Source of the DNA: Kineothrix alysoides
GTDB lineage: Bacteria > Bacillota > Clostridia > Lachnospirales > Lachnospiraceae
DNA: 64,000 nucleotides
NCBI RefSeq assembly: GCF_000732725.1
Contig: NZ_JPNB01000003.1
Location: 1-64,000 of the forward strand
Direction of reading: 5' to 3'
In this document: positions 4,292 through 28,021 of the stretch, one piece after another
Layout: every line of letters starts with the position of its first letter
Numbering within the stretch: the first letter of the stretch is position 1
Made by a program: the position numbers and the translations under genes
The notes under the pieces: generated by a model
The model's input: the letters and a program-made list of their open reading frames with translations, nothing else
What the model was told of the DNA's origin: nothing
Databases searched by the model: none

Positions 4292-6244
4292 TTAGGAAAT
4301 CTTTTCCTTTTCTGTTATTAAATGTTGAATGCTATTACATATATCTTCAATCATAGGTCTTTCATATATACTCCTAATATCAATAAGTACATTAAAAAAA
4401 TCTTCGATTTCAACCGATAAACTCATAACTGTGAGAGACTTTGCACCCAGTTCAAAAATATTATCGGTCAAATTTACATTCTCAATTTCTAATACTGATT
4501 TTATAATCCGAACAAGGTTTTCTCTAATATCAGCTTCATTTTGTTTATTTTTCAATTCACCTTTATTATCTATATGGTCTTGATTCAGCTTATTAATTAT
4601 TTCATCAAATTTACCATCTAAAAATATATTTTTTAAAATAACACGATTCACTTTTCCCACTGCAGTTCTTGGCAACTCCTTTAACGGAATTATATATTTT
4701 AGATCTAATCCTACTTTAGATTTGACCGAATATCTAATTTTTGTTGCCAATTCACTGAAATGTATTTCATCACCTTCATATTGCATAAACACAAGGACTT
4801 CATCTTCCATAGAAGTTTTATCTTGTATGCCACAAGCAGCTATATTTCCTACTAATGAGCTATCAACTTTTTCAATAACCATTTCAATATCAAATAAATA
4901 GTAATTAACCATGTTTACAATAATCATTTCTTTAGCACGCCCTGTAATTACTACTTCTTCATCTTTTATAAAGCCCACATCACCTGATCTATACCACCCA
5001 TCGGCAGTAAAGGCATCGTCATTAGGCTTATAGTACCCTGGAGAAACGTTAGGTCCTCCTACTTGAATATGGCCTACCTTTTCATCTTCCAATAATCTAT
5101 CTTCATTATCACAAATCCTAACTTTGCAACGTCTAGGGGGAGTACCAAGGCCAACAAATGATATACCATCTTGAGGATTTTCTTTAATTAATGAACCAAT
5201 GGATAAGCTACCCCTGTCCAAAAAATATGTATTTATGGTTTTTTCCTGGGATACGCAGGCAACTACCATTGCTTCTGTAACCCCGTAAACAGGGCTGATC
5301 ATGCTCCTTTTAATTCTATATTTTTCAAACGAAGAAATAAATGAATTGACTAACGGAATGGATAATGGTTCACCTCCTACTGTAATTAACTTTATATGAG
5401 AAAAATCCCATTCGTGCTTTTCATTTTGATCAATTTTCGACATTAAATATTTCATACCAAAGTTAGCTGTTAATAAAATGGTAGCTCTGTGTTCACATAT
5501 TTTATTAAACCACAACTTTGGAAATCTAAAATATACCCGCTTATCCATTAGGTACTGTGGAGTAGCAGTCATTATGGGGAACAAATGGCAAAACACTATT
5601 CCAACCATATGAGTTAGTGGCATCCAATGTAATGAAACATCACTTGAATCAACATTAAATTTTTCCACCAGATCCTCATTTGTCACCAAAATATTCCTAT
5701 GTGTTGTTTTTACTCCCTTGGGTTCACCCGTCGACCCTGATGAAAACATAATTAGAGCTACATCATCTATATTAGCATTATGAATAGTTCCCTTTTCATC
5801 TGCTGTATCTATTTCATCATAAAACAATACTCGTTTTAAATCGAATTGTCCTATGATTTCAGAAGATGCATTTTCTTTAAATCTTTTAATAATCTCAAAT
5901 ATATCATCTGATGTTAATAAATATGGATAATCAAATAAATTATATACTCTGAATATTCTTGACATTTGCTCATCTGTAATAGCCGTTGATAAAGGAACCG
6001 GAATAATCCCTCCCATAATACATGCCCATAATGAATATATATATTTTTCTTGATCTTCAATTTGAATAATGATTTTTTCTCCTGGCTTAATACCTTTACT
6101 TTGTAACACATAAAGTAACCTTAATGCCTTTTCGTATAAAGCATTGTAAGATACAAACTTTTCTTTCTCCTCACTCAATATAAAAGTTATGCCAATATCC
6201 TCCGACTTATTAGAACTCATCATATCAATTAAACTATCAAACAT
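4292..6244 (-). CDS. Acyl-AMP ligase with C-terminal acyl carrier domain
   Basis: 650 residues. Residues 1-510 form an ANL-superfamily adenylating enzyme. The P-loop-like motif MFSSGSTGEPKGVKTTHRN is near 166-184, YGVTEA lies mid-domain, and GWYRSGDVG and GRAKEMI lie toward the mobile C-lobe. Residues 560-645 form a phosphopantetheine carrier domain; LGAKSL gives the attachment Ser at about 603. It resembles fatty-acyl-AMP ligases that load an acid onto their own carrier instead of making free CoA esters. It is the last gene of the operon, with no polyketide or peptide synthase beside it, so the loaded acyl group probably goes to another enzyme of the operon. The ribosome site is GGAGG. The acid is unknown. 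Confidence 0.85.
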   Translation of the reverse strand: MFDSLIDMMSSNKSEDIGITFILSEEKEKFVSYNALYEKALRLLYVLQSKGIKPGEKIIIQIEDQEKYIYSLWACIMGGIIPVPLSTAITDEQMSRIFRVYNLFDYPYLLTSDDIFEIIKRFKENASSEIIGQFDLKRVLFYDEIDTADEKGTIHNANIDDVALIMFSSGSTGEPKGVKTTHRNILVTNEDLVEKFNVDSSDVSLHWMPLTHMVGIVFCHLFPIMTATPQYLMDKRVYFRFPKLWFNKICEHRATILLTANFGMKYLMSKIDQNEKHEWDFSHIKLITVGGEPLSIPLVNSFISSFEKYRIKRSMISPVYGVTEAMVVACVSQEKTINTYFLDRGSLSIGSLIKENPQDGISFVGLGTPPRRCKVRICDNEDRLLEDEKVGHIQVGGPNVSPGYYKPNDDAFTADGWYRSGDVGFIKDEEVVITGRAKEMIIVNMVNYYLFDIEMVIEKVDSSLVGNIAACGIQDKTSMEDEVLVFMQYEGDEIHFSELATKIRYSVKSKVGLDLKYIIPLKELPRTAVGKVNRVILKNIFLDGKFDEIINKLNQDHIDNKGELKNKQNEADIRENLVRIIKSVLEIENVNLTDNIFELGAKSLTVMSLSVEIEDFFNVLIDIRSIYERPMIEDICNSIQHLITEKEKIS

Positions 6245-6253
6245 ATTATCCTC

Positions 6254-7414
6254 CTACTTTGAAATCATTTCTACAAAAGCTTCTAGCCTAGTTAACAGTT
6301 GCGCCCTATTATAGCTCCGACTATCTAAACAATCACCATTAAGCTCTATTATAGGAATATCCCTTCTATTTAGATGTTTCTTTATGATATTGAATCTTGA
6401 ATTAAACAATCTGCAATTCATATGTGAAAAAAACACAACACCATCAACATCATAATCTAAAACCAGCTTTATTATATTATTTGCTCTTAACTGAACATCG
6501 CAGATAAAAGGAGTATTTAATGTTCTTTCAGCTAACCCTAAAAAAGGATTTTCTGTGGTCAATTCTATTTCCGGTAAAATATTAAACTCTTCAATTGTAA
6601 TCATTGCTCCAAGCTCTTTTTCTATATATTCATATAATTTATCATCATAAGAAATACCCATGTTACACCATAGTATTTTGCATTTTGGAGCAATCTTCTT
6701 TTCATTACATTGCGCATACTTATTACATGTTTCATAATACTCCTGAGCCACCTGCAAAGCTCCCTCTGTCCCAAATAGCATAACTAAATTAACAAATTTA
6801 AGCATCTGTCCGCCATATATCAACCCGGGGTATTTTTTTCTTATATTATTAGCTTTTCTGAAATAGTTTGCTGCTTTATTAGAGAGGTCGATAACTTCTG
6901 ATAATTTAATTAAATCAGGTTCTATTCCAGAAATCTCACACAGTTTTACATAAGTCTCTTCATATTGTTTGGCCACAAAGAATGCTGCATTATTTGACCT
7001 TTCATAAGGTAGATCAATCGCATAAAAAGGTATTTTGTGTTGATTTGACATAACAAAGAAGTCATTTACTACCTCTTGGCACGCATTTAGCCCCACAAAG
7101 GTATTTGGTAATGGTATCAAATTATTATTGACAGCAGATAATGCTAGACGATGAAAACTGCAACCACCTGTATCATAAAATAAGCTATTTGCCCTATCCA
7201 ACCCCCTTTCGTGTATAGTTGTAGGAGGCAGCATTCCAATCATGGACTCAACGATTACAGGCATAAGATCTGCACCTAAAATTATTTCCTGTGGAAAACC
7301 AATATCCTTAAAAATAATCTTTCCCTGATAATTGGACATTCCGCGATAGAACCTGTATTGGAATTTGATTAAGCTGAAATAAAAATCTTCATAATAATGT
7401 ATATCCATTTCCAT
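6254..7414 (-). CDS. 2-hydroxyacyl-CoA dehydratase / benzoyl-CoA reductase family subunit (HgdB-like)
   Basis: 386 residues, the normal subunit length of the HgdB/FldB/BcrC family. These bind [4Fe-4S] clusters and accept single high-energy electrons from an ATP-driven activator to dehydrate 2-hydroxyacyl-CoA or reduce aromatic rings. Conserved features are GGCSFHR near 110, NACQEVVNDF, GVVFFSHMNC with a likely cluster Cys near 335, and the family-typical C-terminus YNRAQLLTRLEAFVEM. It sits directly downstream of a second subunit and the activator. The substrate cannot be read from sequence; the neighbouring adenylating enzyme suggests an acyl thioester. Confidence 0.87.
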   Translation of the reverse strand: MEMDIHYYEDFYFSLIKFQYRFYRGMSNYQGKIIFKDIGFPQEIILGADLMPVIVESMIGMLPPTTIHERGLDRANSLFYDTGGCSFHRLALSAVNNNLIPLPNTFVGLNACQEVVNDFFVMSNQHKIPFYAIDLPYERSNNAAFFVAKQYEETYVKLCEISGIEPDLIKLSEVIDLSNKAANYFRKANNIRKKYPGLIYGGQMLKFVNLVMLFGTEGALQVAQEYYETCNKYAQCNEKKIAPKCKILWCNMGISYDDKLYEYIEKELGAMITIEEFNILPEIELTTENPFLGLAERTLNTPFICDVQLRANNIIKLVLDYDVDGVVFFSHMNCRLFNSRFNIIKKHLNRRDIPIIELNGDCLDSRSYNRAQLLTRLEAFVEMISK

Positions 7415-7428
7415 CTATTATCCCCTGC

Positions 7429-8462
7429 CTATTCTAAGCATTCTATAAAAGCTTGAATTCTTGTATGTATCTGTGCAGAGCAGCTACCAGAAAAAGAATC
7501 ATTTATTACAAGAAAAGGTATTTTCTTTTTCTTTGCGATTTCTGATAAGAGAATCACTCCATATGATTGTATAGGACAAAACTTAATTGTTGAAAATATA
7601 ACTCCTTTTACATTATAATTTTCAAGCTTATCTTCAAACTTCTTTATCCATCCAGAATTCCAATTGCATATGATACTTTCATGATTAGATTGATTATTTG
7701 TATATTTACTACTACCTAAGTCATCTTGCTGAATATATTTTAAGTCATTAGTTTCAAAATTGTCATATGAAATTACTTTACCACCATAATCATTAATCAC
7801 CTGTATAATATCTAATGGTGTAATTTGTATTCCACTTAACAATAATTCAGGAGAATAACATTCGTTTTCAGTCTTTCTTTTCGTTTTTCTTCAAGACTGT
7901 TTAATTCCTTATCATATATCTCATGCAGTTCCCCTGGAAATTCATCAAGAACTTCAATATCTCTTAGGGATAAAGGGACAGAGTTTTTCGCAATATCATC
8001 AACAATTTCTTTTTTATATTTCGTTATTCTTTTTATTTCAAGGCGTTTTTCCTGTAAGATATTATCAGAAATAATTACGTTAAATTCATTCCTTATAAAA
8101 TTAATCAGCTTCAGTTCTTCAATGTTATAATACTCCAATGAATACAGAGAGTTTATCTTTGGTATGTTAATCATAAATATTTTTTTGTTAGGCATATATT
8201 CATGTAAATATTCATACAGGGCCACCATTGCATGACATTTATTTTCAAAAATAAATCCATCATATTTTTGTTCTTCTCTTATAATAATATCTAAGCAGCT
8301 CATTGCATATGAGCACATATAAGTAGGGAAATAACATCTGGAATTATAAGATACCAAACCATCACCCTTTATTCTTGTAAGCTTTATACCAAATGAAAGG
8401 AATACTTCAAAGGGAATCGCATTTCCACACATATAGGCCATATGTATATCCGGACGTATCAT
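7429..8462 (-). pseudogene. Second 2-hydroxyacyl-CoA dehydratase family subunit, split into two reading frames
   Basis: An N-terminal frame from ATG 8462 to a stop at 7836 contains FPTYMCSYAMSCLD, the Cys motif typical of the small subunit. A C-terminal frame from about 7842 to 7429 holds LLSGIQITPLDI, STIKFCPIQSYG and the family ending HTRIQAFIE. Joined, they give about 345 residues, the normal length. The second frame has no ATG or ribosome site of its own, so a single-base loss near 7840-7890 is more likely than two genes. AAAA runs there would restore the frame with one extra A. Without repair the enzyme would be inactive. The ATG overlaps the activator stop (TAATG). It is listed as a pseudogene; a sequencing error is equally possible. 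Confidence 0.75.
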
Positions 8463-9256
8463 TAACAATTGCCACCCCCCACTTTCTTGTATTCTTCTAA
8501 AGCTATAAGAGCCGCTCCAAGTGCTCCTACTATCTGTGGCTCCGGTGGAATGAAGACTTTTTGCCCGATATATTTTTCAAGTTTACGTACTATTCCCATA
8601 TTTTTTGCCACACCACCAGTCATTACGACACTCGGTTCTATTATTGCCCTCTCTAATATTGCTACTGATCTACAACATACAGAATCATGAATCCCATCAA
8701 TTATATCTTCTATCCTATGTTCATCCGCTATTTTTGAGATAACTTCAGACTCTGCAAACACAGTACACACACTGCTTAATTTAATTTCTTTTGAAGCCTG
8801 TTCTGATAATTCCCCCATTTTATCAACATTGACATCAAGAACCCTTGCCATTGCTTCCAGAAATCTACCTGTGCCAGCTGCACATTTTTCATTCATTAAA
8901 AAATCTTCCACTTGTCCGTTAACTCCAACCTTAATTACTTTGCTATCCTGACCTCCAATGTCCAAGATCGTGCGTACTTTTGGATAGTAATATCTCGCCC
9001 CTCTGGCATGACATGATATTTCTGTAACATTTTTAGATGTTTTATCTACATTTTTTCTTCCATATCCAGTGCTCACCATATATTTTAAATCTGACTGTAA
9101 GCATCCTTTCTTTTCACATACCAAGTTTAACGCTTTTTGTGCAGATTCCTTATGATTTGCACTTGTCTGGATCACTTCATAACTTTCTATTTCTTTTTCA
9201 TCATTAATCAACACAATATTCGTTGAACTAGATCCAATATCAATCCCAGCAAACAT
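8462..9256 (-). CDS. 2-hydroxyacyl-CoA dehydratase activator ATPase (HgdC/BadF family)
   Basis: 264 residues starting at ATG 9256 behind GGAGGG; an upstream in-frame GTG overlaps that site and is less likely. ASKHA-fold ATPase: phosphate-1 motif GIDIGSSSTN near residue 4, DIGGQDSKV near 100, VVMTGGVAKN near the C-terminus. The cluster Cys residues in NEKCAAGTGRF (about 125) and SSVCTVFAESEV (about 164) hold one [4Fe-4S] between two protomers. It hydrolyses ATP to push low-potential electrons into the dehydratase subunits encoded just downstream. All motifs are intact. It is oxygen-sensitive, so the pathway must run under anaerobic conditions. Confidence 0.93.
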   Translation of the reverse strand: MFAGIDIGSSSTNIVLINDEKEIESYEVIQTSANHKESAQKALNLVCEKKGCLQSDLKYMVSTGYGRKNVDKTSKNVTEISCHARGARYYYPKVRTILDIGGQDSKVIKVGVNGQVEDFLMNEKCAAGTGRFLEAMARVLDVNVDKMGELSEQASKEIKLSSVCTVFAESEVISKIADEHRIEDIIDGIHDSVCCRSVAILERAIIEPSVVMTGGVAKNMGIVRKLEKYIGQKVFIPPEPQIVGALGAALIALEEYKKVGGGNC

Positions 9257-9282
9257 AATCACCCTCCTAACTAATATCTCAT

Positions 9283-10242
9283 CTAAATATTATCTGCCAA
9301 TATTGCTATTGCTAATGTTAATGTAGGTGACGGCAACTTTTTCTGTCCAAAATCCCATCCTTTGTATCCAGTGTAGATTGATTCCGGTGTAAAAGAACCA
9401 TCTTCATTTTGCTTGTCTAATAATATTGATACCATTTCATTATAAGATTCCTGTGTCTTTGCGTATTCAAAGTTACTCAAAACTTTAATAACATGTATAA
9501 TATCATACCAATGATTTGGATATTTTAGCTTTCTAAAGTCTGTACCCATAGCAAACATGTATATTTTTCTTTCCTTCGTATGTTTCCAATGGTCACAGAT
9601 CGAATCAATCGCATTTTTCACAAACTCTTTATCATGATATTCTGGTAATAAAGAAAAAACCTGTAAAGCCCATAGCGAACCTATTGGGCAATAATCCGTT
9701 TTCCTTCCGGGCCCTCGGAAATTGCTGACAGAACCAGAACATCTCCATCCATTATCTTCAGCTTTTGAAACCAAAAATTGAATTCCCCGCTTTACACGCT
9801 CATCCTCCTTATATCCTGCTACTATTAAAAAGTGAATGAGCAGAGGAAAATCACACATTAACCAATCCATACGAGGTTCTTTTGCACCGCCATAAGATTC
9901 TGGCACATGTAATAAAGATAAAAAAACTCCTTCATCATTTTGATTCTCAAATATTTTCCTTGCCAAATTCTGTATTACCTTTTCTTTACCATCAATTCCC
10001 ATTTCCAAAAGCAGATGTGCCTTATGTATTGGATGATTTACATCGTTATGTCTAACTAATGGCGGTTCCGGCCACTGCTCCACAATTTCGATTGTTTTTT
10101 TTACCTCATCACATGAAAGCAATTGCTTTTTCATTTCTTCAGCACCGCTTTCATTCTTTTCCAGAAATCTTTTGATACCATATTCTACCCAAGGCTGCTT
10201 TTGTCTTTTTAAATAATCCATATAATCATACTTTAATTTCAT
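9283..10242 (-). CDS. Squalene-cyclase/prenyltransferase-repeat (alpha-toroid) protein without DxDD
   Basis: 319 residues with QW-type repeats of terpene cyclases and prenyltransferase beta subunits: FENQNDEGVF near 90, AEDNGWRC near 155 and DKQNEDGSF near 285. It has half the length of a squalene-hopene cyclase and no DxDD protonation motif. It may be a cyclase-fold binding or partner protein, or an enzyme acting by another mechanism. Conserved acidic and aromatic residues (KEPRMDWLMCD, YPNHWYDIIH) line the middle. It is in the same operon as a full-length cyclase domain (14019-17552). GAGGAG precedes the ATG. I do not know its precise role. Confidence 0.7.
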   Translation of the reverse strand: MKLKYDYMDYLKRQKQPWVEYGIKRFLEKNESGAEEMKKQLLSCDEVKKTIEIVEQWPEPPLVRHNDVNHPIHKAHLLLEMGIDGKEKVIQNLARKIFENQNDEGVFLSLLHVPESYGGAKEPRMDWLMCDFPLLIHFLIVAGYKEDERVKRGIQFLVSKAEDNGWRCSGSVSNFRGPGRKTDYCPIGSLWALQVFSLLPEYHDKEFVKNAIDSICDHWKHTKERKIYMFAMGTDFRKLKYPNHWYDIIHVIKVLSNFEYAKTQESYNEMVSILLDKQNEDGSFTPESIYTGYKGWDFGQKKLPSPTLTLAIAILADNI

Positions 10243-10259
10243 GGTCTGCTCCTCTATGT

Positions 10260-11498
10260 TTATTTATTTTCTTTATTGGCTTCAAGGATATAATAAGTCT
10301 TCTTCTTTTCCATTAGCTTTAAAACAAACCCCTTCTTTCCAAATATCTCCTTTACTTCTTCAGCATTCATAAAATGATCATCAAATATAGACTCCATAAT
10401 ACTAATTTTTCCTGTTAGTTTTAAAATCCTTGCTAATTCCTTAATACTTTCATCCAATTTAACAATTTCGCCTAGTACTAAATTGATGCAAATAAGGTCT
10501 ACTGAGTCATCTGAAAGATCAATTGAACAACTATCACCCTTTATATATTTTATATTTTTTATATTCTTTTTTTCTGCTCTTTTTCGAGTTATCTGCAGCA
10601 TTTTTTCCCTGATATCCATTGCAATCAACGTGCCACCAATTTTTTGTGCCAAAGGTATCGAATAATATCCTGGTCCACATCCCAAATCCAGTACCACAGG
10701 ATTCTCAACCTTTTCATCTATACTTAAATTTGCTATGTATTTATATGTAGGAAACAATAAATATCTTAATGGCTGCAATAGTACATATGGCGGAGCTGTT
10801 GATGGTATAGCTTTTATTTTACCTGCATCTGACTTTATTTTTCCTACAATAATAAAGTTCAGTATGATAGTAATAACAAATGTGATTCCAAGAAATGTGT
10901 AATCATACTTTAAAAACGGCATTAGTATGATTATCAGAAATACAAATACTATTCCTCCGAAAATCGGTCCAGCATCTCTTTGTAACCCACGTTTCCAATT
11001 AGCTTTCCCTTGTGCTGGAATCTCAAGAACTTTTCCACGATAAGGAATCAGTCTGGGCACCTTTTTTTTATATGTATCATAAAATTCATTGCATATATTT
11101 ATCAAGAATTTTTCTTCCACATATATTTGATGCATGTGTACCCCTATGGTAGGCAAAACAGCAATTGCAACAACCTGCCACGAATCAAAGATTAGACTAA
11201 ATCCTAACGTAAGTATAATGGCACTAAAATACATTGGATTTCTACAATACCGATAAGGCCCGTTTGTAATGATACCATTTGTCGCTATCGGCTTAATGGA
11301 ATTTATATTTTCCCAATTGTACATTGATGTCCAGATTCTTAAAATTATGCCTAAAAACATAACAATTGTACCTACTCCAAGCATTGTCTTGTTGAACCTG
11401 CTATGTTCATCTAATATAAAGTATAAAATGCTAACAGCCACAGGGAGAACTCCCATCAAAACCCGATATTTATATAGCAAGAGATGTAATCTTTTCAT
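10260..11498 (-). CDS. Membrane isoprenylcysteine-type methyltransferase fused to a soluble SAM methyltransferase
   Basis: 412 residues. Residues 1-150 are an ICMT/PEMT/NnrU-like membrane domain with helices near 12-30, 40-57 and 92-120, and the signature TNGPYRYCRNPMYFS (78-92). A further two membrane helices follow at about 180-220. Residues 240-412 are a class I SAM methyltransferase; the glycine-rich motif is VLDLGCGPGYYS (269-280). The order suggests one or two methyl transfers onto a membrane-bound lipid, for instance an O-methylation and a C-methylation. GGGGGAG lies upstream. Fusions of these two folds are not ones I know as standard. Confidence 0.8.
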   Translation of the reverse strand: MKRLHLLLYKYRVLMGVLPVAVSILYFILDEHSRFNKTMLGVGTIVMFLGIILRIWTSMYNWENINSIKPIATNGIITNGPYRYCRNPMYFSAIILTLGFSLIFDSWQVVAIAVLPTIGVHMHQIYVEEKFLINICNEFYDTYKKKVPRLIPYRGKVLEIPAQGKANWKRGLQRDAGPIFGGIVFVFLIIILMPFLKYDYTFLGITFVITIILNFIIVGKIKSDAGKIKAIPSTAPPYVLLQPLRYLLFPTYKYIANLSIDEKVENPVVLDLGCGPGYYSIPLAQKIGGTLIAMDIREKMLQITRKRAEKKNIKNIKYIKGDSCSIDLSDDSVDLICINLVLGEIVKLDESIKELARILKLTGKISIMESIFDDHFMNAEEVKEIFGKKGFVLKLMEKKKTYYILEANKENK

Positions 11499-11514
11499 AA
11501 AATCTCCCCCAAAG

Positions 11515-12351
11515 TTACTTATTGTATTCTTCTATCCATTTATGACTGTCAACTATGCTGACCATTTCATTATTAAGTTCTCGTATATCATCCTCGTTAT
11601 ATGGAATTGCCGCAAGAATTGCATTCCCATCCATAAATAATTCATCCGTTACTTCATGAAACAATTTAAATTTTTTATTTTTGCAAGCTAATTTACAATT
11701 CTCCCCCTCTTCACAAACCAATCGCTTGGTATGGCATTTTCTTGTCAATGCAACCATTACATTTCCTTTGTGAACATAAATATACATTCCCTCTTTTTGC
11801 AATTTCTTAATTAAGGGAAAGGTTTCGGGTATATAATCAAATTCAAGCCCATAGATATCATTACTTTTTATATATTTTAGGGTTAATTTGTAATTTAAAT
11901 TAGACAAATGAAATAATTTCTTATCCGCAAAGTCAGAAATTATACTATCCTTATCCATAACTGAAGGCATTGCTGGTCTGGCTCTCATTGGTACTGATAT
12001 GGTTTGGCGACCTAATATCACCTTTAGATTCTTTAATGACAAAGATTTTATTAATTGGCTAATACCCAAATCATTTGCAATAATATAAACTGGTAGATTA
12101 TATTCATTAATTTTACATAACTGATGTTTTACCTGATTTATTTCATCATCATTCAAACGTGGGTAAATGAATGATACTCTTTTTCCATGCCTTTCAGCTA
12201 AGTTCATTGCTTCATCTAATTTGTCATCAGGCAAACATTTTTTGAAACAAAATTCGTTACCAAATCTTAACTCAAAGGCTTCCGTTAAAATGTGATTTTC
12301 CTCAATGCCATCCAGATCATTACTATCAATGCACTGCACAAACCGTTCCAT
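11515..12351 (-). CDS. U32 family protein, UbiV-like
   Basis: 278 residues of the U32 'peptidase' superfamily, shortened as in UbiV. The Cys set is Cys35/Cys39 in NEFCFKKC, then Cys206, Cys213, Cys219 and Cys223 in ALTRKCHTKRLVC and ENCKLAC. This matches the spacing of the four-Cys iron-sulfur site that UbiV uses in O2-independent ubiquinone hydroxylation. It overlaps the upstream UbiU-like gene by 26 bases, the order expected for a complex whose two chains are made together. The likely role is half of an anaerobic hydroxylase taking its oxygen from a donor such as prephenate (known for UbiUV; inferred here). It is not a protease by this reading. Confidence 0.7.
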   Translation of the reverse strand: MERFVQCIDSNDLDGIEENHILTEAFELRFGNEFCFKKCLPDDKLDEAMNLAERHGKRVSFIYPRLNDDEINQVKHQLCKINEYNLPVYIIANDLGISQLIKSLSLKNLKVILGRQTISVPMRARPAMPSVMDKDSIISDFADKKLFHLSNLNYKLTLKYIKSNDIYGLEFDYIPETFPLIKKLQKEGMYIYVHKGNVMVALTRKCHTKRLVCEEGENCKLACKNKKFKLFHEVTDELFMDGNAILAAIPYNEDDIRELNNEMVSIVDSHKWIEEYNK

Positions 12352-19781: not shown

Positions 19782-20984
19782 TTAGTCCTGCTGGCAGAAT
19801 GGTCGTATTGAATTATCCCCTTCCAGAAAAAATAGACCGCATTTTTGATTTCGTTCAGCACTGAACTGATGATCTCCCATATAGTTCTCACAACTAATCA
19901 TTAAAACTTCTTTTAAATTTGCCAAAGGGTCAAATTCTTTTTTCAGCATTGATGAAAATAACATTTTTCTAAAGATTTGCTTCTTAATTAGCTGAAACAT
20001 TTTTAAAGTTAATTTTGTCATCAAGAACGTTTTTCTGCCCCATGAGTTAGTATTATTAAGTTCCACTGTCAACTTCTCTAAGTATTTTAGAAAAGAATCC
20101 ATATTCAATGCTTCCTGCACAGGAATTAATGACTTGTTTTTTGTTACATAAACATAAGTTGTTAAATTACACTCCTTATGAAATAAGGGAAAATACTGTT
20201 TTTGTTGCTTTTTACTTACCGCTTCAATAAATTCTGGAACAGGAAGAATGGAAGCCGGTGGTGTGAAATGCTCTTTCCTAATCCGTTGATTTGTCTGGTA
20301 CTCAATACTGTTTACAATCTGGTCTTTGTCAAAGATGTATGTAGAACTAAATTCATCCGAATTATTTCTGTTCCGTATAAAGGATTGGAAATTTACATGT
20401 TCTATAAAATCCTTATTTTCTACTGCAAAATCAATAATAGAACCAATTTCTCCGTCATTCACCCTCTTCATAATGCACGCTGCCAGTATTGTAGCCTGTT
20501 TCACAGATTTTAGGTTTTCTAAGACCTTTCTTTTCGTCTCAGCCAGTTCTCTTCCCCTCATTAATTGGTAAGCTTTATCATTGAATCCATCAAACTGCAA
20601 ACCCATCTGACTCAATCCTGCTTTTTTTAGATCTTTCACGAGTCCTATATCATCAGCAAGCCTTATCCCATTCGTCATGACCTCTGTTCTTTTAAATCCC
20701 ATTTCATGAATTTTTGCAATCAAGTCAGGCAGATCATCACGAAGGGTAGGTTCACCACCGGTTAGCGCAATTGTTGGGTTAATATCCGGTCTATCTTTTT
20801 TTAACTTTTCTAATCGCTCAATAATTTCGCCAAAAACCAAATCTTTGGATGTACTTCCTTTACATGCATTCTTTAATCTTCTAAAACAGATTGGACAATT
20901 AAGATTACATTTTTGCGTCACTTCAATAAGTCCTAATATTGGATTAGACAAATCATTAATGGAAGTAATAAAACCAGTATCCAT
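19782..20984 (-). CDS. Radical SAM enzyme (class D/Tes-like signature)
   Basis: About 400 residues, start taken at ATG 20984 after AGGAAAGGG; an in-frame ATG at 20999 overlaps the upstream gene. The cluster motif is CNLNCPICF at about 26-34, followed by LTGGEPTLRDDLPDLI. The segment MGLQFDGFNDKAYQLMRGRE resembles the MJ0619/Tes-like radical SAM group acting on methanopterin or archaeal lipids. That similarity is by eye and tentative. A C-terminal Cys set (SCENYMGD, KCGLFF, FCQQD) may bind a second cluster. It is between UbiA and a B12 radical SAM gene, which suggests C-C or C-methyl chemistry on the lipid. Confidence 0.75.
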   Translation of the reverse strand: MDTGFITSINDLSNPILGLIEVTQKCNLNCPICFRRLKNACKGSTSKDLVFGEIIERLEKLKKDRPDINPTIALTGGEPTLRDDLPDLIAKIHEMGFKRTEVMTNGIRLADDIGLVKDLKKAGLSQMGLQFDGFNDKAYQLMRGRELAETKRKVLENLKSVKQATILAACIMKRVNDGEIGSIIDFAVENKDFIEHVNFQSFIRNRNNSDEFSSTYIFDKDQIVNSIEYQTNQRIRKEHFTPPASILPVPEFIEAVSKKQQKQYFPLFHKECNLTTYVYVTKNKSLIPVQEALNMDSFLKYLEKLTVELNNTNSWGRKTFLMTKLTLKMFQLIKKQIFRKMLFSSMLKKEFDPLANLKEVLMISCENYMGDHQFSAERNQKCGLFFLEGDNSIRPFCQQD

Positions 20985-20992
20985 ACCCTTTC

Positions 20993-22363
20993 CTACCATT
21001 TCTGTGAGTCAAAAAAGCCACCAATCGACCATTTAAAGAATCCCTTAAACGTTTCTTTATCCAACTTCTTTACTTCTGCAATTACACGCTGCATCATCTT
21101 AATAGGTCTAAAATAAAATTTCCGATAAGAATAATTTAATAGCTTTTGTCCATCCTTAAGCGATATCTCTTTAGTTTCAATAATTGGACTCATAATCGTA
21201 TACCGCAACAAATTCCTTTCCTTAATTAATCCTTCGTTTTCACAGGACTTATAGAATCTTGTTCCTGGAAATGGAGTCGGAACGCCAAAAAATACATAGT
21301 CTGGATCTAATTTTAATACAAAACTCACCGTAGCTTTTGCATCTGCAATTGTTTCCCCCGGAAATCCGAGTATAGACGACACCGCCACTCTCATTCCGGA
21401 ATCACGTCCTAATTGTACAGCCCGGAAAAACAGATCATTTGAAATATCCCTATTGAGATTCTTCATCGTTTTTTCCTGAACAGACTCTATTCCAAACAAT
21501 AAGCATTCACAACCAGCACGATAAAAACGTTTCATAGTTTCTAAATCAGGTACCCGGTCTGCTCTGGTCTGCATCCCCCACCATACTTTCAATTTTCTCT
21601 TTTCAATCTCATCACATATTTCTAACGCCCGAGGTAAATCAACTAAAAAATCTTCATCAACGAATGAAATTCCTTTGACCTTGTATTGTTCAATAAGTGA
21701 TTCCATTTCATCCACAACATTTTTAGCGCTTCTGCCTCTCCAGCTTGGAAATAAATGAGAAATAGAACAGTAATTGCAAGCCATAGGGCATCCTCTGCTG
21801 GTCATCATAGTTGCCATACTCATTGGTCCGAAAAGTTTATATTTATGCATTGGAAATAAATGTCTGGCTGGAAACGGAATCTTATCTAAATCCTCTTCCG
21901 GTGCCCTTGGATTAGTTTTTATTACTTTTCCATCCTTTTTAAACATAAGACCATCAATTTCTTCCGGATCTTTACCACTTAACAATTCTACAAACGTTTT
22001 TTCTCCTTCGCCATACATTACATAATCTGCATATTCGACAACTGTATCTGGTTCTAAGGACGGCATTGTTCCCCCTATTGCTACCGGATAATGCTTTCTT
22101 AGTTGTTCAGCAATCTGCTTGCCATAATCGATATTACAGGTAACGCAGGATATTCCTACAAAGTCAGGATTTGTTTTAAGTGCTTCTTCAACTGTCTTCT
22201 TTACGGAATACTTGAATCCAAAAGCATCTATTACCTTTACCTCATGCCCCGCCCGTTCAATTGCAGCAGCTACATATGCAAGTCCAATTGGAATGCTGGG
22301 CAGGCCCATGAATTTTAATACTCTGGGTTCATCGTAATTTGGATTGACTAAAGTTACACGCAT
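20993..22363 (-). CDS. B12-binding-domain radical SAM enzyme (BchE-like)
   Basis: 456 residues. Cobalamin-binding N-domain (GLPSIPIGLAYVAAAIERAG, then AIGGTMPSLEPD near 95-106), cluster motif CPMACNYC with Cys192, Cys196 and Cys199, SFVDEDFLVD, and SSILGFPGET near 325. Class B methylase or cyclase/oxidase architecture, as for BchE and HpnR. It is a paralogue by fold of 17527-18819 but clearly diverged, so two different carbons may be modified. AGGGGGA ribosome site; the stop overlaps the next gene's alternative start. B12 must be made or taken up by the host. Confidence 0.85.
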   Translation of the reverse strand: MRVTLVNPNYDEPRVLKFMGLPSIPIGLAYVAAAIERAGHEVKVIDAFGFKYSVKKTVEEALKTNPDFVGISCVTCNIDYGKQIAEQLRKHYPVAIGGTMPSLEPDTVVEYADYVMYGEGEKTFVELLSGKDPEEIDGLMFKKDGKVIKTNPRAPEEDLDKIPFPARHLFPMHKYKLFGPMSMATMMTSRGCPMACNYCSISHLFPSWRGRSAKNVVDEMESLIEQYKVKGISFVDEDFLVDLPRALEICDEIEKRKLKVWWGMQTRADRVPDLETMKRFYRAGCECLLFGIESVQEKTMKNLNRDISNDLFFRAVQLGRDSGMRVAVSSILGFPGETIADAKATVSFVLKLDPDYVFFGVPTPFPGTRFYKSCENEGLIKERNLLRYTIMSPIIETKEISLKDGQKLLNYSYRKFYFRPIKMMQRVIAEVKKLDKETFKGFFKWSIGGFFDSQKW

Positions 22364-22364
22364 A

Positions 22365-23594
22365 TTAATTCCCCCTAAATATTTTATCTTTGAAGTACGG
22401 TAAATGCTTTTTCATCATTTTCCACTTCTTTGTATCCTTTACATATTGATTAAAGGCATATTTCATCAATAAAAACTTAAAAACATTTTGATTCTTCTTA
22501 ATATCCATCATTCTCCCTAATACCTCAAATTTAGCACGATAATCCACTAATGCCTTATCATCGTAATACACAATTTCTCTAAAATGGTTTTTACAATAAT
22601 TACATTTAGTGCAATCTTGGCATTCATATCCATCTTTAAAAAAACGATTGAAAAACTTTTCAATCCTCTCATTATCGGAGATGAATTTAAGTTTATTATT
22701 AAACATCAGTTCCCCTAATTCATGGGACTCAGGAGAGATTATTGTCAATAAATCAAGAATATTTTCATTATATGTTCCTCTACTGTAAGCTACTGCTGCC
22801 CGAATAATCCAATCTAACCCCTTCTCTCTACCTCCAATCTTCATATAATCTATGATACCTTCATAATTACTGCAGTCTTCAGGTCGCAACCATGGGCTTT
22901 TCAATATTTCATCCACATGTAATAACCGTTTGTTCAAACAATTATATATGCAATAATCCAAATAAAAAGCTTTCTTATGTACAGAAGCATGCGAACCTGA
23001 ATTATAGTGATAATAACGATATGGACAATCTTTCAAACAACTGTCATTCACAAGTATTTCAAGATCTATCTTTGTATGGTTACGTATACTATTTACTACT
23101 TTAGGCATTCGATTTAAATTAATATTCAATACAATGCGGTCAACACCTAACTCTTCAAATCTTTTTGCCTTTCCGATACTATCAACTCCTACAATTGTTG
23201 ATAACGCAATTCTTACCCTGTTTCTACTTATTTCCTTTACTAATTCAATGAGATAAGGAACAGCTACGGTTACAGTATCACTAAACGAACATATCCATTC
23301 AAGTTCATCCAGCATTTTTGCCTTATATCGTGGATTAAACTCCAAATTACCCAGACAGCTGGCGTTTATTGTATAATTAAATTCCAATCCATTTTCATGA
23401 ACTTTCTTTACATATCTTTCAACATCTTCTCTTTTCAGGTAATCGCCTCGAATTGCTGCTGAAGAATGACCAGCTCCCAGGTAACTGGACTTTAGGGAAC
23501 CATATAGCTCATATATTTTATTCTTTCCTTTTTGGAGTTCTGGAAGATAGTCAAAAAATTTATAATCCCAGGAACAAGGTAATGCTATTTTCAT
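22365..23594 (-). CDS. U32 family protein, third copy, with extra cysteine clusters
   Basis: 409 residues. U32-like barrel (IALPCSWDYKFFD, ELYGSLKSSYLGAGHSSAA, TINASCLGNLEFNP, VDRIVLNINLNRMP) with VNDSCLKDCPYRYYH, DYCIYNCLNK and a C-terminal CQDCTKCNYCKNHF. It resembles U32/UbiV-like iron-sulfur proteins found beside radical SAM and quinone genes, not proteases. It may act alone or with the other pair in O2-free hydroxylation at a different position. Its ATG overlaps the upstream stop (ATGA). No partner of the shorter type is adjacent. Confidence 0.65.
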   Translation of the reverse strand: MKIALPCSWDYKFFDYLPELQKGKNKIYELYGSLKSSYLGAGHSSAAIRGDYLKREDVERYVKKVHENGLEFNYTINASCLGNLEFNPRYKAKMLDELEWICSFSDTVTVAVPYLIELVKEISRNRVRIALSTIVGVDSIGKAKRFEELGVDRIVLNINLNRMPKVVNSIRNHTKIDLEILVNDSCLKDCPYRYYHYNSGSHASVHKKAFYLDYCIYNCLNKRLLHVDEILKSPWLRPEDCSNYEGIIDYMKIGGREKGLDWIIRAAVAYSRGTYNENILDLLTIISPESHELGELMFNNKLKFISDNERIEKFFNRFFKDGYECQDCTKCNYCKNHFREIVYYDDKALVDYRAKFEVLGRMMDIKKNQNVFKFLLMKYAFNQYVKDTKKWKMMKKHLPYFKDKIFRGN

Positions 23595-24808
23595 TTTATG
23601 TTGGACAACCCCTTTTCAATCAACGTCAAATCCCCATTTGTAGATTTTACAAACTTTATTAACTCCTCTGTCACACTACCATTTGCAATAGACTGTTTAA
23701 TAAGATCTGTTCCTTTTTGAAATGTATCTGCCATTCCATTTAAAAATAGATATTGTGCAGCATTTATGATGAGTAAATCAGAATATCCATCATCTCTTTT
23801 ACCAGTCATAGATTCCAGAGTGATTCTTAATCTATCATCAGATTTCGATAATGTAATCTCTTCTGTTTTTCTTCTTTTTACTCCCCAGTCTTCAGGAGTT
23901 GTATATATAGTATCCTTTACCCTATTATCTTCAATCATTGTAATCTTTGTAGTCCCTACATTAGAGACTTCATCCAAAGAATGGCCTTCTTCATCCATAC
24001 CATAGACCACCATGCCCTTTTTGATATATGTACAAAGCTCCACAATCAGCTCTCCAACTAACTCTGTATTTGAAACGCTGATTCCTCTTTGTTGATATGG
24101 GGCTTGAAAAAAATCAAAACAAAGTATATGAAAACGAAATGGATAGAATAAAGCCTTCATAATGTGCATACCATTCGGTACCTGCGACATAAAGGTTGCA
24201 ATATCCTGCGTTTTTGCATCTGCTGCTGATTCACCATTGATATATGCTGCCCGGCTCATGGTAAAAGCTGTATCTACTGCTTCTGGGGTTGTAATGGCCT
24301 GATATCCAATATTATCCGTAAAATTACCAGCTCCTGAAGCTCCAAAATAGGAATGACTGCCCATTTTCAATACGTTGGCTCCAGCTGCAGCTGCCATTAT
24401 TATTGAGGGCGTAGAAACATTGACTGTTCTAATCTCATCTCCACCAAATCCATTGGTATATATTAGATTATCGCTAAATGACTTAACATCTTGGAATCCC
24501 CCAAACCAGCCATTGTCTTTAAAGCTCTGAATAAACCCTTTCATTTCATCAATCGTGATTCCCTTTGCAAATATACCTGTCAAAAAGGTTGGGGCAACCA
24601 ATATTGTAAAAGGATCAATTGATTTTAAAGCCATAAGCATTTGAAGTTTTTTAGGTAAAAACTTCATGTTTACAAATCCTTTTTCAATACTCTTCCATTC
24701 ATTCCATAAATAACTCCATCCCTTTCTTACCTCTTCCTGTGTAAGATTGTCTTGGTTTTGAATGCGAATCAGTATCTTTTCCCACCATAATTCCCATTGT
24801 TTATCCAT
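23591..24808 (-). CDS. Anthranilate phosphoribosyltransferase (TrpD)-like protein
   Basis: 405 residues. It has the TrpD-fold central sequence NVSTPSIIMAAAAGANVLKM, then HSYFGASGAGNFTDNIGY, and VYGMDEEGHSLDEVSNVGTT, where TrpD has its GxDE metal site. There is an unusual N-terminal 80 residues. Genuine TrpD joins anthranilate to phosphoribosyl diphosphate; no other tryptophan gene is near, so this copy probably ribosylates (or moves a ribosyl group onto) a different acceptor of the pathway. Ribosylated lipids such as ribosylhopane give a precedent for the idea only. The glycine-rich phosphate site GDGG of TrpD is replaced by NGFGGDE, so activity is not assured. Confidence 0.72.
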   Translation of the reverse strand: MDKQWELWWEKILIRIQNQDNLTQEEVRKGWSYLWNEWKSIEKGFVNMKFLPKKLQMLMALKSIDPFTILVAPTFLTGIFAKGITIDEMKGFIQSFKDNGWFGGFQDVKSFSDNLIYTNGFGGDEIRTVNVSTPSIIMAAAAGANVLKMGSHSYFGASGAGNFTDNIGYQAITTPEAVDTAFTMSRAAYINGESAADAKTQDIATFMSQVPNGMHIMKALFYPFRFHILCFDFFQAPYQQRGISVSNTELVGELIVELCTYIKKGMVVYGMDEEGHSLDEVSNVGTTKITMIEDNRVKDTIYTTPEDWGVKRRKTEEITLSKSDDRLRITLESMTGKRDDGYSDLLIINAAQYLFLNGMADTFQKGTDLIKQSIANGSVTEELIKFVKSTNGDLTLIEKGLSNIK

Positions 24809-25421
24809 TTTCGCCTACCTTTTCACATAAAATTCCATATTCGAAAAAATATTTTACAGTACCTACTACTTTCAAGCCTGATTTAATACATATTTGCATA
24901 CATTCATCCATGTTTATCGGCTCTGAATAACCCATTTTTTTCTCTCCTAATTCCAGAAACCATGTAAATAAATTATTATTGAGCGCAAAGATTAATATAT
25001 ATCCATTCACTTTAGTAAAGGATTTATGTAACTCAATGATATCTTCCTTTTTACTAAAGTGTTCAAGTAAGCCATCACTCATTACCAAGTCATACTCCGG
25101 TTTGCGATCAATCTTGAGAAAGTCTTCTCTCAGATACCTGATACCAGCTGCCTTATTCCTAAATAATTTCTTATGCATTTCATAGGCAATCTCATTGTTA
25201 TCTACGAGTGTTATATTACCCCCATATAGATCTTGAACATGTACAGACGCTGCTCCTGTACCAGCACCTACTTCAAGAACGCTAGGCTCTCTCAGTTCGA
25301 TTTTCTCTAAAACTTTTCTATACTTCTTTAAATGCAGGAAATAAAGGAATTCCAAAAACAGAGGATGTTTCCTTACCCTTTTCCAAAAGAAATCCCAATC
25401 AACCTTCTCTTTTGTTTCCAT
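24801..25421 (-). CDS. Class I SAM-dependent methyltransferase
   Basis: 206 residues. Motif I PSVLEVGAGTGAASVH near 46-61, acidic motif II ITLVDNNE near 75, YDLVMSDGLLEHFS near 109-122. An N- or O-methyltransferase or a lipid methylase by family; no substrate clue in sequence. It is translationally coupled downstream to the TrpD-like gene (8-base overlap) and lies 4 bases after the radical SAM gene. The C-terminus carries an aromatic segment (VKYFFEYGILCEK) that could cap the active site. Confidence 0.82.
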   Translation of the reverse strand: METKEKVDWDFFWKRVRKHPLFLEFLYFLHLKKYRKVLEKIELREPSVLEVGAGTGAASVHVQDLYGGNITLVDNNEIAYEMHKKLFRNKAAGIRYLREDFLKIDRKPEYDLVMSDGLLEHFSKKEDIIELHKSFTKVNGYILIFALNNNLFTWFLELGEKKMGYSEPINMDECMQICIKSGLKVVGTVKYFFEYGILCEKVGENG

Positions 25422-25425
25422 ACTA

Positions 25426-27045
25426 CTACCATTTTCCTTTAATCATTTTTGAATAATCATTGAGTCCATATTTTTTCAAAACATCTTTCATAAGATAATC
25501 GAATATTTTCTTTTGGTAAACTTTATCTACATAAAGATTATCTTCTCCTCTGACGTACAAATCATTATATGCCTCTGTTAAATCAGGATAATATTCCTTA
25601 ATAAATTGTTTTATTTTAAACTTGCTGTCACCACGCAAATTCAAAATATCCGGTATCACATAATCTACTTTATAATCAGCTAGTGTTCTAATAATATTTT
25701 CCATTTCATTTTCACTGTCATTAATGTAAGGAAATATAGGAATCATTAGAACACCAACTGTGATACCTGCTTTCTTTAAGTATTCTATCGCTTTCAAACG
25801 ATCCTCTATACGTGCAGCCCTTTTTTCAATTTTATCGAGAAATGTCTGATTCAGAGAAGGTATACTGAAAACAACATCTGTTAGTGATCCTAACTTTTTT
25901 AATATATCAATATCCCTGATTACCAAATCTGATTTTGTCGTAATTGTAACTGGGTTTTTATGCTTATACAGTGTCTCAAGAATTTTCCGTGTAATTTCAT
26001 AATGTTCATCAATCTTTTGATATGGATCTGTTACTGTGCCAAGGTTAATCAATTTATTTCTACTATTTCTCCATTTAGGAACAATAATCTGTTTTTCTAG
26101 CGCTTTATCTGCATTTATTTTTACATAGATAAAACGTTCAAATTCATCCTTGGTATGCCCCATAAATTCATGGCTGGTTCTTCCATAACAATATTCACAA
26201 GCATGCAAACATCCTCTATAAGGATTTGCTCCCCAATTAAAGGGCAACATAGGTGAATTAATGAAATGCAACATAGTAGAAACAATAATCTCCTGATAAG
26301 TTACATCTACTTTACTCTCATCACTGCTGAACTTCTCGCTAATTAATCGAATTCTTTGTTCCTCATATTCATTCATTTTATCTTCACATGATTTCCTAAA
26401 ACCCGATTCAACCAATTCGCCAAACTTAAGCTCAAACACCTTTCTAATAACATAGAAAGTATTGATATTCTTTCTATTTATCCAATCAATAAAGTATTTT
26501 TGTAGCAAAGTAACATTTTTCTTACCTAAATTATTTATGGCAGAAATCAAACCCTGCTGAGTATCCAGGTTATTTGACTCAATATAATTCTCTGCTGAAT
26601 CCAAGAAAGCGATAATTTCCTCCCTATTGTTCTTTTTGGCCAATACTTTACTGTATACTTCCAAGTATATACGGGGTAATGCCGGAAACTCCGGATCAGT
26701 TATTTTTTCTCTTATATATGATATAAATTTAAAATCCTCTTTTGACAATATTGTTTCAAAACTTGGTATCAAACCATATCTGATGAACTTTTTACTCCAA
26801 TCATTAGATAGCACTATCAATTTTTCCTGAATTGATTCTCTGTTTTCTTCTAACTTATTGTATTCGTGAGCCATATACATAGCTGCAAAGATTCTGACAT
26901 ATTCATCTTCTGACTCTAAAAGTGTAAGAACATCTTCAAAATCATTAACCTTTGATTCGGATTCTATTTCATTTTTTAATAGGGTTTTACATGTCTTAAT
27001 TTCCGGATTTCTTTTAATTTCATTGATAATCAAATTAATATTCAT
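25426..27045 (-). CDS. HEAT-like repeat + SPL-type radical SAM protein
   Basis: 539 residues. Residues 1-235 are all-helical and look like HEAT-type repeats (for example LLESEDEYVRIFAAMYMAHE). Residues 250-530 are a radical SAM domain of the spore-photoproduct-lyase/PA0069 group: NPYRGCLHACEYCYGR with Cys279, Cys283 and Cys286, LGTVTDPYQKIDEHYEITR, TTKSDLVIRDID, IEKRAARIEDRL. The reaction is unknown; the N-terminal repeat domain may hold a protein or lipid partner. AAGGAG upstream; the ATG overlaps the prenyl synthase stop (ATGA). Confidence 0.82.
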   Translation of the reverse strand: MNINLIINEIKRNPEIKTCKTLLKNEIESESKVNDFEDVLTLLESEDEYVRIFAAMYMAHEYNKLEENRESIQEKLIVLSNDWSKKFIRYGLIPSFETILSKEDFKFISYIREKITDPEFPALPRIYLEVYSKVLAKKNNREEIIAFLDSAENYIESNNLDTQQGLISAINNLGKKNVTLLQKYFIDWINRKNINTFYVIRKVFELKFGELVESGFRKSCEDKMNEYEEQRIRLISEKFSSDESKVDVTYQEIIVSTMLHFINSPMLPFNWGANPYRGCLHACEYCYGRTSHEFMGHTKDEFERFIYVKINADKALEKQIIVPKWRNSRNKLINLGTVTDPYQKIDEHYEITRKILETLYKHKNPVTITTKSDLVIRDIDILKKLGSLTDVVFSIPSLNQTFLDKIEKRAARIEDRLKAIEYLKKAGITVGVLMIPIFPYINDSENEMENIIRTLADYKVDYVIPDILNLRGDSKFKIKQFIKEYYPDLTEAYNDLYVRGEDNLYVDKVYQKKIFDYLMKDVLKKYGLNDYSKMIKGKW

Positions 27046-28021
27046 TCCGTCTCCTTTAGAAAATGCTCACAGTATTCTTGCAAAGCAATTTTATATTTAC
27101 TTTCTTTTATGTCCCTTAATTCTTCTTTGGCCTTTAATACATAACAAGCAATTTTCTTTTTGACTTCAGCAATAACCATATCACAGCTTATTATTTCAAT
27201 TACTGAATCTTTATTAAAAATCTTTCCATTATAAAAATTTTTTATAATTTCTTTTTCTTCTTTATTACTTAATTTATAAGCAACAATTATTGGCAAAGTT
27301 ACAAGTCTTCTCTCAAAATCAGTCTGATAGGATTTATCTTCTTTCTCCATCTTTAAAAAAATAACGCTTTTTAAATCATCCATCATCTGATAAGCAATTC
27401 CTAGATTGTAGCCATACGATACTAAAGATTTTCTATAATGTTCGCTGGCACCTGCTATTATTGTACCTAATTCACATGCCATTGAAAAAAATATGGATGT
27501 TTTATTACTGATAACTTTAAAATAATCTTCTTCACTAATTTCATAATTTCCTATCAGGATGCTTTCAGACCTCTGTCCTTCATACATATGTAACAAACAT
27601 GAAGATACACTTTTAAGAATTTGTTTTTTTTTTCTTCCGCTTTAACTTCAGCAATCAATCTCATAGCTATGAATATAAGATAATCACCTAATAATAACGC
27701 AGAATGGAGGCCGTATTCATTAATAACTGTTTTACGGCCTCTTCTATACAAGCCATTATCTATGATATCATCATGGATTAGACTTGCAGCTTGTATAAAT
27801 TCAATAATAATTGATAAATGGGAAAGATTTGGATGGGATTCTTCGCTCTCTAAAAAACTTGTAATATACGTAAAAGTAGAACGAATCATTTTCCCCGGAG
27901 ATTCTATTACTTGCTTTAATTCAGGAATTTTATTATAAACATCTATACCAGCAAGTATTTTTAAGACTTGATTGTTATAATCGTTTCTAACTATTTCATT
28001 AATTTCATTAAATAACTCCAT
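27042..28021 (-). CDS. Polyprenyl diphosphate synthase, two frames joined by a likely -1 shift
   Basis: The first frame (28021-27554) holds the first Asp-rich motif HDDIIDNG (83-90) and RRGRKTV. The second (to 27042) holds GTIIAG and the second motif YQMMDDLKSV. They meet at an A10 run followed by C (27633-27623); a -1 shift there reads on as QILKSVSSCLLHMYEGQ and gives a normal 326-residue synthase. The run contains A AAA AAC in the correct phase. The second frame alone has no good start. Synthases of this family extend C5 units to a chain whose length I cannot tell. The usual third Asp of the second motif is Ser (DDLKS). First gene of the operon; AAGGGG upstream. It could be programmed shifting, slippage, sequencing error or decay. 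Confidence 0.78.
27620..27636 (-). promoter_or_regulatory. A10C slippery site in the prenyl synthase gene
   Basis: In the zero frame the codons are GAA AAA AAA AAC, so the final seven bases form A AAA AAC, a classical -1 heptamer. Ten A in a row also allow RNA polymerase slippage. A slip of -1 continues in the frame that encodes the rest of the synthase. No obvious stimulatory hairpin with strong GC pairing lies just downstream. Confidence 0.5.

Follow-up and report, generated by a model that had tools for sequence, protein, structure and literature searches.

A 64,000-nucleotide window of Kineothrix alysoides (positions 1 to 64,000 of contig NZ_JPNB01000003.1, hereafter C3) carries, from 28021 to 4292 on the minus strand, an operon-like run of 21 open reading frames (ORFs) that overlap or lie at most 30 bp apart. 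On balance, we favor the view that this is a mobile anaerobic cluster for a cyclized prenylated lipid of meroterpenoid-like type, with its own exporter. The product would most likely be an exported, cyclized, prenylated and probably aromatic meroterpenoid. The opposite strand has only shorter ORFs across the cluster, which overlap the cluster ORFs. Since frame breaks divide both a polyprenyl synthase gene and the gene for one HGD-D subunit into two ORFs, the 21 ORFs represent 19 genes, in agreement with an earlier note on this DNA that had reported about 20 packed genes on one strand. Our family scans (Pfam and NCBIfam on the cluster ORFs) recovered all the families named there: polyprenyl synthase, UbiA, squalene-hopene cyclase (SHC), U32, two B12-radical SAM and two other radical SAM proteins, methyltransferases, a TrpD-like protein, HGD-D with its activase, and an acyl-AMP ligase with its carrier. 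The proposal of one biosynthetic block of these families was thus sound, but it had missed an ATP-binding cassette (ABC) exporter (K-L), the fusion of the cyclase, and the two frame-broken genes. We letter the ORFs A to U in the order of transcription, from 28021 to 4292:

27554..28021, minus strand: A, N-terminal part of a polyprenyl diphosphate synthase (PF00348, 8e-23), with a frame break near a run of A bases
27042..27596, minus strand: B, C-terminal part of the synthase begun in A (PF00348, 2e-22)
25426..27045, minus strand: C, radical SAM protein with a PA0069/Rv2578c-like C-terminal part and a CX3CX2C motif (below cut-offs)
24801..25421, minus strand: D, small S-adenosylmethionine-dependent methyltransferase (PF13649, 8e-10)
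23591..24808, minus strand: E, TrpD-fold phosphoribosyltransferase-like protein with an altered motif (PF00591, 3e-23)
22365..23594, minus strand: F, cysteine-rich U32-family protein (PF01136, 1.5e-5)
20993..22363, minus strand: G, B12-binding radical SAM protein, BchE/HpnJ-like (family scans)
19782..20999, minus strand: H, radical SAM protein related to the tetraether synthase Tes (NF045702)
18816..19751, minus strand: I, UbiA-family membrane prenyltransferase with two Asp-rich stretches (PF01040, 5e-21)
17527..18828, minus strand: J, second B12-binding radical SAM protein (family scans)
14019..17552, minus strand: K, 1,177 amino acids, with a signal-peptide-like N-terminus, SHC toroid, transmembrane helix and MacB/FtsX permease
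13317..14009, minus strand: L, ABC ATPase of LolD/MacB type, presumed partner of K (PF00005, 1e-35; 229 of 308 bits on the LolD model)
12326..13336, minus strand: M, UbiU-like U32 protein (PF01136, 1e-37)
11515..12351, minus strand: N, UbiV-like by its cysteine motif (C35 or C39 ... C206-X12-C219-X3-C223), adjoining M
10260..11498, minus strand: O, PEMT/ICMT-like membrane domain fused to a UbiE-like methyltransferase (family scans)
9283..10242, minus strand: P, putative small alpha-toroid protein (weak SQHop_cyclase_C match, E 0.001)
8462..9262, minus strand: Q, 2-hydroxyacyl-CoA dehydratase/benzoyl-CoA reductase activase (TIGR00241, 277 bits, above the cut-off of 125)
7836..8468, minus strand: R, N-terminal part of an HGD-D-type subunit, frame-broken (PF06050, 1e-15)
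7429..7842, minus strand: S, C-terminal part of the subunit begun in R (PF06050, 6e-18)
6254..7414, minus strand: T, second HGD-D-type subunit (PF06050, 4e-54)
4292..6244, minus strand: U, fatty acyl-AMP ligase-like protein fused to a carrier domain (PF00501, PF00550; NF006624, 245 of 600 bits)

The cluster is a real, mobile and constrained block of uncommon composition. It cannot be ascribed to chance, because its gene order recurs in two other genera. A to U are colinear and unbroken in a genome from another family of the class Clostridia (G510; 77.4% DNA identity to the window over 23.7 kb), and A to Q are colinear in Mobilisporobacter senegalensis DSM 26537 (G169; class Clostridia, family Lachnospiraceae; 78% over 19.6 kb), which confirms the expected joint neighborhood in Clostridia. 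The ratio of nonsynonymous to synonymous rates (dN/dS) between the window and G169 lies between 0.04 and 0.10 in 14 of the 15 genes C to Q; the synonymous sites of H are saturated in this pair, and its ratio against G510 is 0.04. Against G510, T and U give 0.09-0.10, and the broken genes, with each side taken separately, give 0.13 (A), 0.11-0.13 (B), 0.25 (R) and 0.19 (S). In the close pair formed by G169 and G510, eight genes range from 0.09 to 0.28, with the highest value in N. These low ratios show that selection keeps the cluster genes, including, until recently, the broken ones. The genes are not broadly inactivated, an outcome that the earlier note had said would refute its proposal: 17 of the 19 are unbroken in the window, all are constrained, and the copy of G510 is fully open.

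The cluster is rare in the sampled genomes. An SHC-domain profile (E<=1e-40) matched 2 of 397 genomes of the family (the source genome and G169), 3 of 391 of the class (the source genome, G510, and G543, which has a related type of cluster) and 2 of 11 genomes drawn from G510's own genus and family; the three samples overlap. The E protein was found in 2 of 195 relatives, namely the source genome and G169, and in none of the other 15 genomes of the source genus. Across the phylum it occurred in 1 of 299 genomes, the source genome itself. When K was used as a single query, 141 of 145 relatives matched, nearly all of them in the permease part; among the matches listed, the toroid was matched only in the source genome and in G006, a genome of the same genus. 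A contig scan with only two N-terminal peptide patterns gave one locus and sets no bound on the distribution.

The hopene-cyclase-like domain noticed earlier is present, not as a free enzyme but fused to a MacB/FtsX permease, and this fusion, absent from the earlier note, is the strongest new point of our analysis. K has the same length and layout in the window, G169 and G510. All three orthologues have a signal-peptide-like stretch, the SHC toroid, a transmembrane helix at about 754-774, the first MacB transmembrane helix, a periplasmic-type core and the FtsX helices. The hydropathy profile predicts that the toroid sits outside the membrane. Its alignment to the SHC of A. acidocaldarius (1gsz) scores 275 bits. 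The D-x-D-D acid motif is retained, as are an H and a W at positions that correspond to residues 451 and 489 of that enzyme (numbered from the alignment). We tentatively suggest, with less than even confidence, that K-L is a cyclize-and-export machine, in which an ABC permease would carry its own class II terpene cyclase on the outer side of the cytoplasmic membrane and would be supplied by an O2-free meroterpenoid pathway that spreads between Clostridia.

Some other secreted alpha-toroid proteins only bind. K and L could likewise form a lipid- or ligand-binding ABC system, and the product would then be an uncyclized prenylated compound. This would suit the signal-peptide-like N-terminus, the fusion to the MacB permease and the score of K on the squalene-hopene cyclase equivalog model (TIGR01507), which at 320.5 bits misses the cut-off of 431. 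Yet the catalytic acid motif and its neighboring residues are kept, K is under purifying selection (dN/dS of about 0.07 against both G169 and G510), and related clusters encode free SHC proteins. We consider a toroid that only binds somewhat unlikely. The second cyclase fold proposed for P holds up less well than the first: there is a toroid match, but at 18.6 bits it is under the Pfam cut-off of 26.1, and a profile search of the PDB gave no meaningful match.

If K is a cyclase, what does it cyclize? No squalene or phytoene synthase was found in any of the five SHC-carrying genomes (four at least 99% complete, G006 81%), with a search that was positive in 7 of 14 control genomes. Hence, a linear prenylated substrate is likely, as for the cyanobacterial cyclase MstE (PMC9401909, PMC5618424). 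The cyclase substrate is then likely a prenylated acceptor, as the earlier note had proposed.

Two other genomes have clusters that resemble this one in having a polyprenyl synthase, two UbiA genes, SHC and radical SAM genes, but differ in having two free SHC genes and, judging by sequence, SPASM-like radical SAM genes. In G006 (L034 161-13743), tblastn identified a polyprenyl synthase, two UbiA and two SHC genes, which by sequence are accompanied by Dxs, three radical SAM/SPASM-like genes and ABC transporter genes. The cluster of G543 (contig C8, L048 112-15000 and L049 1-7827) has two SHC, two UbiA and two polyprenyl synthase genes, a B12-radical SAM gene, a C-like radical SAM gene, an F-like U32 gene, a NUDIX (Idi-like) gene and a row of five similar radical SAM-like ORFs, one of which was scanned for families. 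Genes for an acyltransferase, a MacB-type permease and a thioesterase lie at L049 12472-17638. No tblastn match to D, E or M to U was found in the stretches examined in these two genomes.

The U32 proteins point to O2-free hydroxylation. M scores 106.9 bits on the UbiU model (cut-off 440), and its alignment to E. coli UbiU has a local z of 37, a value that none of 300 shuffles reached, and pairs three of the four cluster cysteines. The UbiV protein has a four-cysteine spacing of CXnCX12CX3C (described in passages of PMC6747719). N has this motif, with C206, C219 and C223 preceded by C35 and C39, in all three orthologues, and its C35 pairs with C39 of UbiV in a global alignment. N aligned to UbiV with a local z of 3.9 (1 of 300 shuffles as good) and a global z of 3.2 (0 of 300), and to UbiU with values of 3.1 and 0.5. 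It had no family match (best Pfam 0.098; none in NCBIfam at E<=0.01, UbiV included) and no useful match in a profile search of the PDB. Its assignment as UbiV-like thus rests on motif, adjacency and a weak alignment, since profile-profile tests failed. The third U32 protein, F, has four cysteines (C186, C190, C215 and C219) that are invariant in four of four sequences. Relatives of F at E<=1e-35 occur in 8 of 291 genomes of the class, the source genome included. Four such loci were read with 13-20 kb of context. Those of G543 (contig C19) and G592 are not in acyl-ligase/NRPS-like (nonribosomal peptide synthetase-like) or B12-radical SAM surroundings, and the other two lie among such genes, by tblastn and sequence:

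G720, L065 9135-10376: F-like U32 gene, NRPS-like or acyl-ligase/B12-radical SAM locus
G594, L062 9752-10927: F-like U32 gene, NRPS-like or acyl-ligase/B12-radical SAM locus

This hints that F-like U32 proteins may form a family of hydroxylases that tailor natural products without O2.

Among the remaining genes, A/B is a single open gene of 329 amino acids in G169 and G510, and the Asp-rich stretches of I are what we take to be the UbiA motif. None of the radical SAM proteins (C, G, H, J) reached a curated radical SAM cut-off among the matches listed, and the roles we give them are family-level guesses. H scores 264 bits on the Tes equivalog model (cut-off 450), and G is the best conserved protein of the cluster, at 91% to G169. 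Aligned to 9ucw, E shows the G-GGD, N-ST, K and DE features of TrpD, but K-M-G-S replaces the K-H-G-N motif of TrpD. With this change and 132 bits on the trpD model (cut-off 199), we rejected a role of E in tryptophan synthesis. R/S is a single open gene of 334 amino acids in G510.

In the pathway as we infer it, from the reactions and their order to the acceptor, the export and the catalysis by K, the polyprenyl synthase A/B would make a linear polyprenyl diphosphate that UbiA (I) would couple to an acceptor, probably aromatic. E, U and the dehydratase/reductase module Q-T could supply this acceptor or activate it. Hydroxylation without O2 would fall to F and to the UbiU/UbiV-like pair M-N, with prephenate as the oxygen donor by analogy with ubiquinone. 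According to passages of a review (PMC11574389), prephenate is the source of the hydroxyl oxygen in anaerobic ubiquinone synthesis, direct evidence for the U32 step being still lacking. D and O would provide methylation steps, and the B12-radical SAM proteins G and J, with the radical SAM proteins C and H, may functionalize unreactive carbons. Finally, K-L would lift the lipid from the membrane into the extracytoplasmic SHC-type toroid, which would cyclize the prenyl tail by protonation and pass the product outward.

A number of observations weigh against this interpretation and should be taken with it. The K toroid could bind rather than cyclize. The two free SHC proteins of G543 lack a signal peptide, so an extracytoplasmic cyclase is not general. 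The MacB-type permease and L-like ATPase of G543 lie about 11 kb from its SHC genes, with plus-strand ORFs in between, and this genome therefore supports a link between cyclase and transporter weakly. F aligns to UbiV slightly better than N does (local z of 4.7, 0 of 300 shuffles, vs 3.9), and hhalign of N and F against M gave probabilities of 1-2% with thin profiles of 2-4 sequences. E is below the TrpD cut-off. The G169 block keeps only 45 residues of R, and S to U were not found downstream of it (the rest of the genome was not searched); because of this truncation, R to U may be optional or a separate module. Two of the 19 genes are frame-broken in the window copy, owing either to assembly or sequencing error or to recent decay.

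Could the cluster instead make a new respiratory-type isoprenoid quinone, with the remaining genes decorating the ring? The polyprenyl synthase, UbiA, the UbiE-like domain and the UbiU/V-like pair do resemble anaerobic ubiquinone synthesis, and, according to passages of a 2026 survey (PMC13386864), Bacillota and Chloroflexota make up most of the lineages that lack a known quinone pathway, and the discovery of a new quinone is recent. But the cyclase domain, exporter, acyl ligase and TrpD-like genes would have no role in such a pathway, and no SCP2/UbiT match was found among the 21 ORFs (the rest of the genome was not searched). The distribution is also sporadic, with E in 1 of 16 genomes of the source genus (its own) and SHC in 2 of 11 of the genus of G510. 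A quinone pathway is improbable. We give similarly little credence to the idea that the cluster is a decaying passenger of a mobile element, inactive in the source host. The two frame breaks, the truncated 3' end in G169 and the faster evolution of the broken genes (notably R) fit decay, but all other genes are open and constrained, both sides of each break remain constrained, and the window has a consensus promoter match. The least probable alternative is a hopanoid- or sterol-like structural membrane lipid placed in the outer leaflet by K-L. In its favor, G and J match the HpnJ/HpnR models and H matches that of tetraether synthase, each short of its cut-off. It would, however, leave the UbiA, U32, dehydratase and acyl-ligase genes unexplained and fits poorly with the sporadic distribution; a hopanoid pathway was rejected since no squalene or phytoene synthase was found.

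The clusters of G169 and G510 share 93.1% DNA identity over 19.9 kb, whereas their LysS proteins are only 66% identical, which shows that the cluster moves horizontally. Between the window and G169 this contrast is small (76-91% for the cluster proteins C to Q, 73% for LysS). The block of G510 is flanked by a pair of repeats that are 92% identical and at least 3.9 kb long and carry serine recombinase and IS21 genes, the recombinase being CcrB/XisF-like but below cut-offs. These repeats (L046 1014-5788; L047 from 16048) bracket the cluster in a composite-transposon-like arrangement. The G+C content in the window is 0.336 for the cluster, 0.408 for the right flank and 0.350 for the short left flank. 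The clusters of G169 and G510 (0.342 and 0.340) are similar in G+C to their flanks (0.31-0.35). The features around the cluster are as follows:

1445..3381, minus strand: Y-family DNA polymerase gene and YolD-like gene (below cut-off), adjoining the cluster
28127..28156, minus strand: sigma-70-type promoter match, 12 of 12 consensus bases, 18-nucleotide spacer, about 105 bp upstream of the first gene
28202..28412, no strand given: polymerase gene remnant upstream of the cluster, 80-87% identity to parts of 2492-2820
31166..56716, minus strand: conjugation gene region, beside the cluster
31166..32992, minus strand: VirB4-like ORF of 608 amino acids (model positions 293-885 of 894; 360 of 590 bits)
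42021..43379, minus strand: VirB11/TadA-like gene (below the NCBIfam cut-off)
50659..52755, minus strand: VirD4 of the CD1115 family (314 bits, cut-off 250)
55505..56716, minus strand: MobP3 relaxase (210 bits, cut-off 150)

The promoter scan gave 5 sites where 4.7 were expected in shuffles; the one at 28127..28156 is the only one with 12 of 12 bases and is a predicted consensus match. Similar Y-family polymerase DNA also adjoins the G169 cluster. The conjugative element announced by the earlier note is partly borne out, with a relaxase and a VirD4 over their cut-offs beside the cluster, but the VirB4-like ORF, which lacks the N-terminal third of the model, and the VirB11-like gene are below theirs. 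Within this region, 45807-48470 encodes a C-5 cytosine DNA methylase and a weak PAPS-reductase-like match (below cut-off). C3 also has a ParB-like (Pfam) and a ParA-like (by sequence) gene near 70-72 kb, beside which a single ORF of 2,317 amino acids spans 63463-70416 of the conjugative region. We rejected the possibility that C3 is a plasmid: it has 20 tRNA genes, together with ORFs that from their sequence we take to be TsaD- and IspD-like. Since conjugation genes adjoin the cluster, yet the contig looks chromosomal, the region is likely an integrated conjugative element, whose left end is lost at the contig end (base 1 of the window). Cargo of a phage or of a known plasmid was likewise rejected, as megablast of the cluster against 72,556 records from plasmids and 50,697 from phages gave no match. 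By tblastn, E matched 27 plasmid records, all below 60% identity and mostly annotated trpD among the matches listed, and VirD4 matched 2,939, all below 60% identity. In viral contigs, 14 stretches matched the pattern of E, none a relative. Neither megablast of the conjugation region against plasmids nor a Rep_3 search of the source genome gave anything useful.

Several known systems share parts of this architecture. K resembles squalene-hopene cyclases in its toroid and DXDD motif, but differs by its signal-peptide-like N-terminus, its MacB fusion, its score under the equivalog cut-off and in that no squalene or phytoene synthase was found in the genomes. K-L resembles MacB/LolCDE in the MacB_PCD and FtsX domains of the permease and in the LolD-like ATPase, but adds an N-terminal cyclase-type toroid and one extra transmembrane helix. 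M-N resembles UbiU-UbiV of E. coli by adjacency, by the UbiV cysteine spacing and by its UbiA and UbiE-like partners, but the curated cut-offs are missed, one UbiU cysteine is unaligned and UbiT was not found in the cluster. A precedent is that of the merosterols, where a UbiA-type enzyme and an SHC-type cyclase act on a prenylated aromatic acid (passages of PMC5618424 and PMC9401909). Like the merosterol system of cyanobacteria (MstE), the cluster combines a UbiA-type prenyltransferase with an SHC-type class II cyclase, together with a prenyl diphosphate synthase. Unlike it, the cluster has O2-independent families and no P450 match in its 21 ORFs, its cyclase domain is apparently exported and fused to an ABC permease, and the cluster is mobile between Clostridia. 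As the earlier note had supposed, no described pathway or cluster with this gene set was found among the open-licence PMC papers listed, judged largely by their titles and opening abstract lines, nor, by title, any work on this cluster among the Mobilisporobacter papers listed.

Known meroterpenoid tailoring largely uses O2. The cluster, which appears to use O2-independent families for prenylation, cyclization, hydroxylation and C-functionalization, would give anaerobes a natural-product class that we did not find described for them in the literature searched. It would offer new reactions of U32 proteins, B12-radical SAM enzymes and an exported cyclase, and the cyclase-permease provides a clean, testable architecture. 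If K indeed cyclizes its substrate outside the membrane, the pairing of such external terpene polycyclization with ABC transport would represent a new principle.

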